From: Lentinula raphanica
Lineage: Eukaryota; Basidiomycota; Agaricomycetes; Agaricales; Omphalotaceae
Direction of reading: 5' to 3'
DNA: 64,000 nt
NCBI GenBank assembly: GCA_027919835.1
Contig: JANVFP010000015.1
Coordinates: forward strand, 744,001-808,000
This document shows positions 36,774 to 49,641 of this stretch, one piece after another. Under the pieces are notes generated by a model. The model searched no databases and was not told the origin of the DNA. It worked only from the letters and a program-made list of their open reading frames with translations. The position numbers and the translations under genes are program-made. How positions within the stretch are numbered: position 1 is the stretch's first letter; every line of letters begins with the position of its first letter.

Positions 36774-38013
36774 ATGCCTAAAGATAGAGGCGATAATTCT
36801 TATGGACGCTCTAGAAGTCCCAATCGCGAGTCGGAAAGAGATACTCGCAACAGATTCTCCTCAAGGCGCTCCAGATCAAGGTCTCGTTCGAGATCACCAA
36901 GGCGCTCGAACAAACATAGAGACGCGAGTGAGGAGAGAACTCATAGGGAAAGGAGAAGCCGGAGGAGTCGCAGTCGCAGTAGAAGCAGAAGCAGAAGTCC
37001 CGTCCCAAAAAGGCGTAGATATTCTACCTCACCGTCTCGTTCGCGGTCCAGGTCAAGAGATAGGTTGTTGAAGCGGAAAGGACGAGCAGACTCTGTCTCC
37101 AGTACTTCAGACTCGGAACTCGAGCGCAAAAAACGGAGGAAGAAGAAGGAAGAAAAACGAAGCAGAAGTAAAGAGAGGGAGCGAAAGGACAGAAAGGAGC
37201 GAAAACGAGAGAAGAAGGAACGCAAAGAAAAGGCAAGAGTGCTCCATCAATTGAATAACTCATTAGCTGACTTTGGCTTGTCTTGCGTAGAAGAAGAAAG
37301 GTAGCACACAACAATGGGGAAAATATGGTATCATTTCCGAGGTCGAGTATGTATCTCATTGTTCAATGTTGTCGCCCAGACTTTGCTTAATGTATATCAG
37401 TATATTCTCCAAGGCATCTGAATTCCAAACGTGGCTGGTCGAAGAGCGCAAAATCAATCCTGAAACTATATCAAAAGATCAAAATAAGAAGGAGTTTGCA
37501 AGATTCATAGAGGATTTCAACACTGGTGAGCGAATGCATTCTATCTGAAAAGAACATTATTTTGCTCATTCGGATGTAGCAACACTTCCGCACGAAAAAT
37601 ATTACAACATGGAGGCATATGAGAGGCGAATGGTTGCTCTTCGTTCGGGAGAATTCTTACCTCCGACAGATGATTATTATGATCCTTCTGCGGATATGAA
37701 GGCTCTAAGCAATGCTCACAAGAAAAAGGGTGGCACCGATAGTTCCTCATATCTCAGTAAAGAGCATTTGATGGAGCTTAGAAAAGTGCAAAATGAACGT
37801 GTAGAGGTCCGTAAACGTTTCACCAGGTTTCATGAAGAGTTACAGCGCTTTTCAAAAGTCTGCGGAAAAATCAAAAAAGAAAAAAAGAAAGGGTCTCATC
37901 GGTGCTACGTCACTCATGTCATTACACAAGCACTGTACCGTACTTTTTTTGCCTTAGAATACAATTCATCCATACCTGTCTTCTTCTTTTATGCCTCGCC
38001 GCTACTCAGATGA
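36774..38013 (+). CDS. SR-rich nuclear protein, 3' end replaced by a transposon
   Basis: The N-terminal half is Arg/Ser dipeptide-rich (RSRSRSRSRSPRRSNKHRD and similar) and then Lys/Glu-rich. The second half is an ordered, conserved-looking domain: STQQWGKYGIISEVDIFSKA, FQTWLVEERKINPETISKDQ, EFARFIEDFNTATLPHEKYY, MEAYERRMVALRSGEF and LMELRKVQNERVEVRKRF. I recognise the style of a splicing-associated protein but not a name. The intron after ERKEK may use a GC donor (GCAAGA) or GTGCTC nine bases on. At 37843 a mariner-type transposon begins inside the Leu codon region. The frame now runs into the terminal inverted repeat and stops at 38011-38013, adding about 54 foreign residues. The native ending lies beyond the element at 41140-41154. 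Confidence 0.82.
37843..37884 (+). repeat. Left terminal inverted repeat of the transposon
   Basis: These 42 bases match the complement of 41096-41137 without mismatch. The match ends where the left copy continues AAGAAAGGG and the right copy reads CACAATTG. Confidence 0.92.
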
Positions 38014-39046
38014 TCTGAAGGCCAGAGCGGTCATACTCTACTTCGATTATCAGCTCACTGTACACAAAATTTGCAAGTATCTTGGTATCAAAAAAACTCT
38101 TGTTTACAAGCTCATCAATCAATACGAGTCTGGTGTAATTCAAACCCGGCGTAAATCTTCTGGCTGTCCACGAACTCTCAACAGGATTGACGAAGCTTAT
38201 ATCTCTTCTCTCATCAAACACAAACCATGTCTTTATCTCGATGAAATCCAAGAAGCTCTGTTGCAAGCACAAGACATCCAAACATCAATTCCACTTCTTT
38301 GTCGCACTCTACGAAATCTCAAATTCACTCGCAAAGTCTGTTCCGTAAAAGCTTTAGAACGGAACGAAAATCAGCGAGCATATTTTATGCTTCACATGGC
38401 CCGACTTGCACCTCGTCTGGACATGCTTATGTTCATTGATGAAGCTGCTCGGAATCGGCGAACTTCTTACAGAAAGTATGGGCGAGCACTCCAAGGAAGC
38501 AGATGTATTCAGAGGCGGCCTTTTGTTCGAGGCCACCGGGTATCTATACTTCCTGCGCTTACGATTGATGGAATTATTGGTTACGATATCATTCCGGGCT
38601 CAGTATCTACCAAGAAATTCATGAAATTTCTTGAGCGACATGTCGTGAGTCTTTCTCAGTCATATGTTGTCTTTACTCAAATTTTTCCTCTTTAGATACC
38701 TTACACAACTCCTTATCCTGGTCCCAGAAGTGTAATTGTGATGGATAACTGTAGCATTCACCATGCTGAGGAGGTTCGTGAACTTATCGAAGATCAGGCA
38801 TGTATGTCTTTCATAATTATCGTAATTATATGTGAGATTCTGATTCGAGTGACTCTAGTATGCAAACTTGTCTTCCTTCCGCCATATTCCCCAGATCTGA
38901 ATCCAATTGAACAAGCTTTCTCTTCGATAAAGGCATTTTTACGCCGACATTCACAAGACTACTCAAATGTAATCATCGATGAAGCATGTAGAAGTATCAC
39001 TGGTTCAAAAGCTTGGGGTTATTTCAGTGCATCGGGCTACATATGA
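37991..39046 (+). CDS. Tc1/mariner-superfamily DDE transposase
   Basis: Three exons are joined by a phase-0 intron (about 38647-38695, GTGAGT...TTTAG) and a second intron (about 38802-38859). The N-terminus is a helix-turn-helix domain ([40 protein letters not shown]). The catalytic core shows [20 protein letters not shown] (first Asp), [12 protein letters not shown] (second Asp) and [20 protein letters not shown] (Glu), with 35 residues between the second Asp and the Glu. SPDLNPIE is the family hallmark. Length near 315 residues is normal. No stop or frameshift breaks the reading, so the enzyme may be functional. It would cut at the 42-bp repeats and integrate at TA. Confidence 0.92.
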
Positions 39047-43859: not shown

Positions 43860-44742
43860 TCAGAGGGCCCGCTCATAGATGATAACGCCACCTAATGATG
43901 GATGCAAAAATTTAACCGTTAGTGAGAAGATTCTAAACTCCCGCTCACCATTGGGAGCCGTTACAGGATCACTAGCTGGAATTTGCCTCTTGTCATAGGG
44001 TACAATAACGCCTTCATATAAAACACATCAACGCCCCCTTCAATGGTAAACAATCAGAGGACCGAACATCTTTCACTCACCATTCGGAGATTTAACGGGT
44101 TCTTCGACGGGAATTTGCCTCTTGTCATAGGGTACAATGACGCCTTCAAATAAAAACACATCAACGCCCCCCTTCAGCTGAAAACAATCAGAAAATGAAA
44201 CATCTTCCACTCACCATTCGGAGATTTAACGGGTTGTTCAACTGGAATTTGCCTCTTGCCGTAGGGCTCGACAACGCCTTCAATGGAAATATTCTCAGAG
44301 GCTAGTACTATCATCCCAAACTCGAGAAAACACCTACCACCTGGTGTTTGCGTACCTTGCTCTGCAGGAGTTTGTCTCTTGACATAGGGTATAATACCAC
44401 CTGCAAAATGATTCTTAGAGTTATGACTGTCAAGCACGACAAGGCAACCACCAACCGTTAGGGTTGCTGACAGGTTGCTCCACAGGAATTTGCCTTGCGA
44501 AGAGGCCGTGATTATCTGGAAATTTGGGAGAGTCCGATATACCCATTGTAAGTATTCTTTTCAGAGTTTAGAGACTGAGGGATTGCAAACCATCTTTGAC
44601 CTGCGAGAAAGAGATATGTGTTTAGGTTCACCATAATCATAGATAGCGCGCAGTCAAAGGGTCTTACAGGTACAGGAGAGGCAGTCACCACGCCAATCAG
44701 AACAAACGCCAGGAAGGCACAGACAATTGTACGAAGAGACAT
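43860..44742 (-). CDS. Secreted Kex2-processed repeat peptide precursor 1
   Basis: Eight exons encode about 147 residues. Exon 1 (44742-44668) is a signal peptide, MSLRTIVCAFLAFVLIGVV plus TASPVP. A short exon 2 (44600-44576) follows; its donor is weak and an alternative exists in the same phase. Then come repeat units: QIPVEQPVSNPNG-GIIPYVKR, QTPAEQGTQTPGG-VVEPYGKR, QIPVEQPVKSPNG-VIVPYDKR, QIPVEEPVKSPNG-VIVPYDKR and QIPASDPVTAPNG-GVIIYERAL. Each unit begins with Gln right after KR (AR for the first), the Kex2 site. Exons 4-7 (44400-44338, 44277-44215, 44143-44081, 44011-43949) are exactly 63 nt. Every intron between repeats is phase 1 inside the Gly codon. Mature products would be 19-21-mers, possibly with pyroglutamate ends after trimming. 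No known family was recognised. Confidence 0.82.
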
Positions 44743-47043: not shown

Positions 47044-47303
47044 GTTGATTGAATGAGAAAACGTGAAGAGTGTTATGAAGAATGAGAGCTGGAAGGTTCC
47101 TGCTGCCTGGCAAGGAAAAAACGAAAGTGAACTGGAAGTAGAGAGAGAAAAGAGGAGTGAAGGGGGAAAGAGATGAAAGAGCGAGTTTAAGAAGGCTGGC
47201 GGTGTGTACGTATCATTTATACATTTGATGGTCGCCCATACAACGGACAGTTGCTTTTTTCCCACGCTTTCCATTCCCAATTTTTTCGTTCTTTACTTCC
47301 AAG
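47044..47303. promoter_or_regulatory. Divergent promoter region, Kex2-repeat gene 2 / ESF1
   Basis: This 260-bp region must serve a secreted peptide gene and a ribosome biogenesis gene. A purine-rich stretch (about 47090-47190) on the plus strand equals a pyrimidine-rich leader for the peptide gene. An upstream in-frame ATG for the peptide gene exists at 47280 but would hide the signal peptide. Confidence 0.45.
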
Positions 47304-49641
47304 ATGTCCGACCCTCGTTTTGCTAGACTCAAATCAGATCCTCGCTTTCGTCGTCCCAAGAAACATCAGTCCAAAGTAGTCGTCGATGACCGCTTCAAAT
47401 CCGTCTTTGCCCCTCCCAAAAGCAAAAAGAGCAAGGGCAAATCTGGTTGGTTGACACCTCGTATCAATTGGTTGCCTTACACTCATCTTCCCGTTATTTT
47501 TATCATCAGGCCGCGTGGATAAATACGGACGGCCTGTAAAGGATGATCAGGATCAAGAGAACTTGAAACGGTTCTATCGCCTTGAGAACGAGGAAGAGTC
47601 TGCTGAAAATCAGCCCGCAGTGCTGGACTATGCTCGTGGTGAAGTTTTACTCGAATCCTCCGATGAAGAGGAGGAACATGATGACAGTGATGAAGGCGAC
47701 AACTTTGTGACTGTTGGACAAGATCCATCACGTCCTATATCTATCAGGAATGATGAACCGGAAATAGACCTTGACGAAAACAATTTCCAAGATTTGGACG
47801 CACAGGTTGACGCATACAATGCCTCCCATCCGGAACCTGACGCTGTCCCGGAGGCTACAAGGACCAATCGGTTGGCCATAGTGAACCTTGATTGGGATCA
47901 CGTCCGTGCAATTCATCTGTACAAAATCTGCTCATCATTAGTGTCACCCACCGCTTCGGCAGTCTCTTCTTCATCCAAGGCAACCTCCGAGTCAGACAAA
48001 CGACAGCGGCTTCTGAAGAAGGACGCTACTAGTGTCGTCCGTGGCCGTGTTCTCAGCGTCAAAATCTTCATGAGCCAGTTTGGAAAGGAGAGAATCAGTC
48101 GCGAGGAAAAAGAGGGACCTCCACCGGAGATTTTCAAGAGGAAGCAGGCAGATGACGACGAGGAAGTGAACGAGCGCACTATAATCCAAGTTGGTGACGA
48201 GAACGAATTCGATCAGGATGCGCTAAGAAAGTATCAACTGGAAAGATTACGGTATGCTAGGTTTCCTCGCGCTACAACGTTGGTGTTTCATGTACTTGAC
48301 AGATACTACTACGCTATCCTTGAATGTGACACTGTCGATGCCGCTTCGCATATCTACGATGAACTGGAAGGAACAGAGTTAGAACGTTCCGCCAACGTCT
48401 TCGACATGAGTTTCGTACCCAACGATATGACCTTTGAGGATGAACCGAGGTGTGCAATCTGTGTTCCACTGCGTATATAGCCTGACATCGAACAGAGACG
48501 AAGCTTCCGAAGACGAAGGTGCTACATACAAGGGAGTCGAATTCGTGACTGATGTAAGCTTTCTGGCCATTTCATAATTCATCTCCATTCTGAATCTCAG
48601 CTTACATTAGGCGTTGCGCCACTCTAAAGTCAAGCTGACTTGGGACGACGACGACCCAAACAGGAATCAAATCACCCGTCGCAAGATCACGCGTAAGGAG
48701 ATAGATGAAGCAGATTTCAAGGCATACCTCGCCTCTTCGTCTTCAGAGTCCGAGTCCGATGACGGTGCTAAACAAAAGCCAGCTTCGCGGGACAAGCTGC
48801 GTTCTTTACTGCTCGGTGGCGGCAATGAGCTACCGGAAGGCTGGAACAATGGAGATGAAGATGGCGACGGCGATGAAGGGGATGTTGACATGGAGGTCAC
48901 TTTTGCGCCTGGCTTATCGACAACAAAGGAAGACGAGGATGAGACTACGCTTGAAAAGTACCAGCGCAAGATGAAGGAGAAGAGAAAGAAGAAGAAGGAG
49001 CAAAGGCCTACGCGGGCTGATGAGGACGAAGAAGAACACGTCGTGGAAGCGGATGACTTCTTCGCTGCTGCCAGTGAAGACGAAGGAACACCAGAACCTT
49101 CTGGTAAGAGAAAGAAGAAAGAGCAGAAGAACAAGGAGCAAGAGCAGAGGAACAAATTGAAGGTGAAGGAAGTTGCCTCTGAGAATGATTTAGCTCTGCT
49201 CGTGGGTTCGAGCGTTACCGGACCCCAGCATTTCAATCTCAAGTCGGTAATGAAGGCTGAGAAACTGAAGGGGAAAAAGTTGAAGAAGAGGAAACAAAAC
49301 AAAAATGACGAGGCGGAGTTGCAGGAAGATTTCGCTATAGACGTTCACGATGACCGTTTCAAGGCGGTTCATGAAAGTCACGACTTTGCCATCGATCCTT
49401 CAAATCCTCAGTAAGTCGAGAACATTCAGATCAAATTTCCGAACTCAATCTCTCTCTCTCTCTCTCCAGTTTCAAAAAGACGAAGGCCATGAAGAGTCTG
49501 CTCGACGCTCGCTCAAAAACCAGAGATACCCGGCCACAGCACCAAAACTCTGGCGACAGTTTACAAAGCCTCGTAGAGAGCGTAAAAAGGAAAAGCACAT
49601 CTTCTGGTGCACCAACCATTGGAAAGCGCCGCAAGCTTTAG
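47304..49641 (+). CDS. ESF1: ESF1-like pre-rRNA processing protein
   Basis: The start MSDPRFARLKSDPRFRRPKK is characteristic of ESF1, a nucleolar U3-associated protein needed for 18S rRNA maturation. Next come VDDRFKSVF, GRVDKYGRPVKDDQDQENLK and RFYRLENEEESAE, then TNRLAIVNLDWDHVRAIHLY and VLSVKIFMSQFGKERISREE. The domain closes with LRKYQLERLRYARFPRATTL, HIYDELEGTELERSANVFDM and FVPNDMTF. A Lys/Glu-rich region follows, then HDDRFKAVHESHDFAIDPSN, HFKKTKAMKSLLDARSKTRD and a terminal KRRKL. Introns: about 47448-47513, 48450-48494, 48550-48610 and 49411-49469. The length of about 720 residues fits the family. Confidence 0.93.

Follow-up and report, generated by a model that had tools for sequence, protein, structure and literature searches.

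Gene A, on the minus strand at 44742..43860 of the 64,000-nucleotide stretch of Lentinula raphanica DNA analysed here (the window), is a gene for a KEX2-processed repeat protein (KEP) of a known family, that of Coprinopsis cinerea KEP 497993, to which it adds a new member rather than a new family. We consider it very probable that gene A, as a KEP of this agaricomycete 497993 type, makes linear peptides and that its exon plan arose by tandem duplication of exon plus intron. Together with a tandem paralogue, gene B, it brings a Lentinula locus into a family of mushroom peptides for which products have already been measured, and its gene model predicts exact peptides. The exon plan also illustrates one way for a peptide array to expand, by duplication of equal-phase exon-plus-intron units, in contrast to two other KEP arrays of the same genome, which have no introns between their repeats.

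Eight exons of gene A form one frame of 429 nt, encoding 142 residues and a stop codon. Their predicted splicing was compared with P0001, an annotated L. raphanica protein (EV361DRAFT_1037336, 141 aa) that is 97% identical to the gene A product. The exons, the two introns that figure in the argument below and the paralogue are as follows.

44668..44742, minus strand: gene A exon 1, 75 nt, with the start codon and the region of the signal peptide, MSLRTIVCAFLAFVLIGVVTASPVP; fits P0001
44591..44600, minus strand: gene A exon 2, 10 nt; P0001 implies the same join
44456..44515, minus strand: gene A exon 3, 60 nt, pro-segment plus N-terminal half of peptide 1
44338..44400, minus strand: gene A exon 4, 63 or 60 nt, C-terminal half of peptide 1, KR and N-terminal half of peptide 2
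44215..44277, minus strand: gene A exon 5, 63 nt, C-terminal half of peptide 2, KR and N-terminal half of peptide 3
44144..44214, minus strand: gene A intron 5, 71 nt
44081..44143, minus strand: gene A exon 6, 63 nt, C-terminal half of peptide 3, KR and N-terminal half of peptide 4
44012..44080, minus strand: gene A intron 6, 69 nt, a copy of intron 5
43949..44011, minus strand: gene A exon 7, 63 nt, C-terminal half of peptide 4, KR and N-terminal half of peptide 5
43860..43891, minus strand: gene A exon 8, 32 nt, C-terminal half of peptide 5 (GVIIYERAL), then the stop codon
46369..47043, minus strand: gene B, tandem paralogue of gene A, five exons, 151 aa

The coordinates and exon plan of the first-pass annotation were essentially right, as P0001 fits the joins of gene A, including that of the 10-nt exon 2, which is followed by the weak donor GTTTGC of intron 2, with the exception of one Gly. 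P0001 differs from the gene A product by three substitutions and this missing Gly, and reads QTPGVVEPY where the gene A model has QTPGGVVEPY. Exon 4 has two donors 3 nt apart, of which the upstream one gives a 60-nt exon matching the shorter form. Exons 4-7 were originally described as exactly 63 nt each, which holds for the present model, but judging from the P0001 protein exon 4 may be 60 nt instead. The five introns between repeat halves (introns 3-7) are all phase 1 and lie in the Gly codon after PN or PG, just as had been claimed.

A repeat of about 21 residues occurs five times in the product, as QIPVEQPVSNPNGGIIPYVKR, QTPAEQGTQTPGGVVEPYGKR, QIPVEQPVKSPNGVIVPYDKR, QIPVEEPVKSPNGVIVPYDKR and QIPASDPVTAPNGGVIIYERAL-stop, at 21-residue spacing, with KR in all four gaps between them. 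The initial description had every copy ending in KR; five copies are indeed present, but only copies 1-4 end in PYxKR, and the last ends in YERAL. The N-terminus has a hydrophobic core (mean Kyte-Doolittle value 3.0 over 12 residues) and, by inspection and hydropathy, a predicted signal peptide. These features support the proposal of a secreted Kex2-type repeat precursor. Pfam detected no domain in the gene A or gene B products. The introns cut inside each peptide, after NG, so that a 63-nt exon carries the back half of one peptide, the KR and the front half of the next. Equating each repeat with one 63-nt exon was thus correct as to length and incorrect as to content, since the exon spans two half peptides around the KR.

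The repeat structure is not a product of chance: copies in repeat families D1-D3 are 71-93% identical to their reference copies. The coding repeats are also under constraint, with pN below pS in all six pairs among exons 4-7. Between exons 5 and 6, 6.0 of 14.8 synonymous and 4.0 of 48.2 nonsynonymous sites differ. Three of these six pairs were also compared by Fisher tests, using rounded counts, which gave p 0.009 for exons 5/6, p 0.015 for exons 6/7 and p 0.076, which is not significant, for exons 5/7.

Gene B, overlooked in the first-pass annotation, lies some 1.6 kb upstream of gene A on the same strand, and all 151 residues of its product match those of P0006, an annotated L. raphanica protein (100% identity). 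Its exon 4 is 63 nt long, and the introns after exons 2, 3 and 4 are all phase 1 in Gly. Exon 5 (46538-46369) holds two repeats with no intron between them; the last repeats of gene B have lost their introns or never had them. In protein searches of the 49-Mb genome with A and B, only these two loci appeared among the 6 and 7 candidates listed, in which small exons elsewhere could be missed; one further match, on C11, had an E value of 4.24. A side observation concerns P0009, the gene B homologue of Lentinula lateritia, which has a 17-residue insertion at about residues 74-90, within two residues of the position of gene B intron 3, as if an intron had been read through or spliced differently.

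One alternative is that gene A, a duplicate of gene B, is in decay and makes little or no peptide. The weak donor of intron 2 and the last copy without KR would fit such decay, as would the differences between P0001 and gene A, given that P0006 is identical to B. In protein searches, moreover, the only Lentinula match to A is from L. raphanica, versus close matches to B in four Lentinula entries; however, small multi-exon genes are easily left unannotated, so the absence of gene A elsewhere is weak evidence. All eight exons of gene A are open, the excess of synonymous change extends to 6/6 exon pairs, and P0001 represents an intact allele or copy. We therefore regard decay as unlikely.

The first-pass annotation knew of no described family with this repeat, which was wrong, as the family is in print (PMC9769878) and homologues were found in the database. 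A protein search with gene A recovered homologues across the Agaricales, including Termitomyces P0002 (E 1.1e-33), Hymenopellis P0003 (6.6e-31), Desarmillaria P0004 (7.4e-21) and Mycena P0005 (4.4e-16), and a profile search added Amanita, Agrocybe and others. The total is 17 distinct proteins (P0001-P0017): five from Lentinula, one each from Termitomyces and Hymenopellis, two from Desarmillaria, four from Mycena, one each from Amanita and Agrocybe, and P0010 and P0012. The last of the series, P0017, is marginal (E 8.7e-4), and a loose repeat pattern counts zero repeats in it. By the same loose pattern, 21-residue spacing is kept throughout in 5 of the 17 (P0002, P0005, P0010, P0012 and P0016), and spacing in the remainder ranges from 16 to 97 residues. 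Separately, the annotated forms of P0002, P0010 and P0012 begin upstream of their likely true starts, and GPDAF is common to the three extensions; this stretch may come from erroneous translation of a conserved 5' leader or promoter element.

Gene A carries the QIPxE...NGxIxPYxK repeat of the KEP 497993 type, and like KEP 497993 it combines a signal peptide with repeats separated by dibasic sites (PMC9769878). Termitomyces P0002 contains QIPAEVPTKSINGKIEPYDKR, which is close to QIPAELPTKSINGNIEPYK, a measured C. cinerea peptide with N-terminal (pyro)Gln that spans the point where the gene A introns fall. The link between gene A and KEP 497993 is thus made through the printed peptides and P0002, not through a full-length alignment. 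In C. cinerea, pyro-QIPAELPTKSINGNIEPY and a K-extended form were measured by mass spectrometry, mainly in premature caps (Vogt et al. 2022, PMC9769878), and pyro-QVPVDEPA was measured in mycelium and culture fluid; all three measured peptides were gone in the KEP 497993 knockout (PMC9769878). The earlier expectation of peptides of about 19-21 residues with N-terminal Gln agrees with these measurements for the homologue. The same paper calls the C. cinerea KEP peptides linear, with minimal modification, reports at least 13 homologues of KEP 497993 in other species, including Lentinula edodes, and reports no visible phenotype for kep knockouts, that of KEP 497993 included, and no inhibition of the five bacterial strains against which synthetic KEP peptides were tested (PMC9769878).

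By analogy with the C. cinerea work for the processing steps, we propose that the gene A precursor would enter the secretory pathway via its signal peptide, that Kex2 would cut after KR and Kex1 would trim the basic ends, and that the N-terminal Gln would cyclise to pyroglutamate. The predicted products are up to five linear peptides, with 19 residues each for copies 1-4, for example pyroQ-IPVEQPVKSPNGVIVPYD, and these may serve as secreted signals or as effectors towards other organisms. Two stretches of this genome match the Kex2 P domain, and the frame of one of them is interrupted by a stop codon.

Introns 5 and 6 are 84% identical (58 of 69 aligned bases), whereas 100 shuffles averaged 47% and reached 61% at most, and repeat family D4 (116 nt, 83%) supports this intron copy. 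Exons 5 and 6 are likewise 84% identical (53 of 63), which indicates that a unit of about 133 bp, exon plus intron, was copied as a whole. The other nine pairs among introns 3-7 are 38-62% identical, the shuffle control having been run for introns 5/6 only, so just one duplication is clearly visible. A shared exon-plus-intron duplication nevertheless means that the 63-nt exons are not all independent coincidences. We hypothesize that the array grew by tandem duplication of this unit and that equal intron phase would have kept the duplications in frame. Repeat-sized exons most likely reflect gene growth, not regulation.

This plan is local and is not kept throughout the family, as exon 5 of gene B, a Hymenopellis junction and the AADW-type KEP loci of this genome all differ from it. 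In Hymenopellis P0003, a shifted reading frame contains a 20-residue run compatible with a repeat crossing NG-NI (maximum 8 in 200 shuffles). The misread frame of this annotated protein suggests that one junction, not the whole gene, is uninterrupted there. The AADW-type loci, found with one pattern and not by a census, are G000:C9:1277500-1277880, with ten repeats, and G000:C29:302872-303099, with six, one of them degenerate. They too have repeats separated by dibasic sites, and resemble the printed repeat of Lentinula edodes KEP 2599, but unlike gene A they are single open stretches with no introns between repeats.

A second alternative is that the 63-nt exons are alternatively spliced cassettes, the pairing of front and back halves being tuned by tissue or stage. 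The units are frame-neutral, as the first-pass annotation recognised: any of the 16 ways of keeping or omitting exons 4-7, counting the full form, leaves the frame intact. Because the exon boundaries lie inside the peptide, skipping would create hybrid peptides; 12 distinct peptides are possible, seven of them hybrids absent from the full form. Introns 4 and 7 can moreover be retained with the frame kept and no stop in the intron, making intron retention a possible form of variation too. The cassette reading gains from the tissue specificity of the KEP 497993 peptides in C. cinerea (PMC9769878) and from a junction count in Schizophyllum commune, where 1,527 exon-skipping events fall in coding regions, alongside 7,851 alternative sites (PMC5034255). 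By transcript, however, exon skipping makes up 1% of coding-region events in S. commune (PMC5034255), a contrast that keeps rarity alone from being decisive. The plan is also missing at one Hymenopellis junction and in the last repeats of gene B. The earlier suggestion that alternative splicing tunes the peptide mix is unsupported here; the plan is not kept across the family, and skipping would yield hybrids. We regard tuned cassettes as very unlikely, and would put the same low expectation on exon choice at the RNA level that generates up to 12 combinatorial hybrid peptides per gene.

A dikaritin-like RiPP, in which a UstYa oxidase would cyclise the conserved Tyr near KR, is barely credible: copies 1-4 have the PYxKR ending and the genome has 13 stretches matching UstYa (DUF3328), but these lie on C12, C17 and C19 and none on C15, the window's contig, which makes such cyclisation unlikely, and the C. 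cinerea KEP peptides are the linear, minimally modified ones noted above. An alpha-pheromone-like KEP was also rejected, as gene A has no repeated XA/XP dipeptides (STE13 sites) and its cores begin with QIP or QTP directly after KR.

Returning to the placement of gene A among KEPs, Umemura (2020) describes KEP type #7 (G-1/P-2) as the most widespread type, with 64 KEPs in 49 genera, Tyr-rich and with DUF3328 nearby in 0/64 (PMC7329392). Its genera include Coprinopsis, Termitomyces and Pleurotus, and Lentinula is absent from the genus list (PMC7329392). Our guess, going by the description of the type without its sequence logo, is that the gene A family corresponds to type #7.

Among the literature matches listed, supplements aside, we recognised no fungal KEP or RiPP with an exon-per-repeat gene, and the plan of gene A was not found described for fungal KEPs. 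Neither "exon" nor "splic" occurs in the main text of PMC9769878, PMC7329392 or PMC6339444; "intron" occurs once in the main text of PMC9769878 and is, like exon and splicing, without mention in that of PMC7329392. The nearest parallel is the honeybee apidaecin precursor genes, which also encode a multipeptide precursor in several exons each encoding a peptide (PMC3415428). Apidaecin is, however, an unrelated insect antibacterial, and each of its exons encodes one distinct peptide, whereas the introns here halve the peptides.

Genes built in this way call for caution, as searches and gene callers blind to short exons may miss or misjoin them. A degenerate repeat pattern searched against the genome gave one match, on C13, and missed gene A because an intron interrupts the motif; the C13 place is absent from the candidates listed in the protein searches with A and B.

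Two neighbouring features of the window may be recorded. An ESF1-like gene with RRM_ESF1 and NUC153 domains occupies about 47300-49500 on the plus strand, its start close to and divergent from gene B. An ORF at 37958-38695 on the plus strand, adjoining an Arg-Ser-rich ORF, scores above the Pfam cut-off for HTH_Tnp_1 and just below it for DDE_3, and we take it to be a Tc1/mariner-like transposase fragment.
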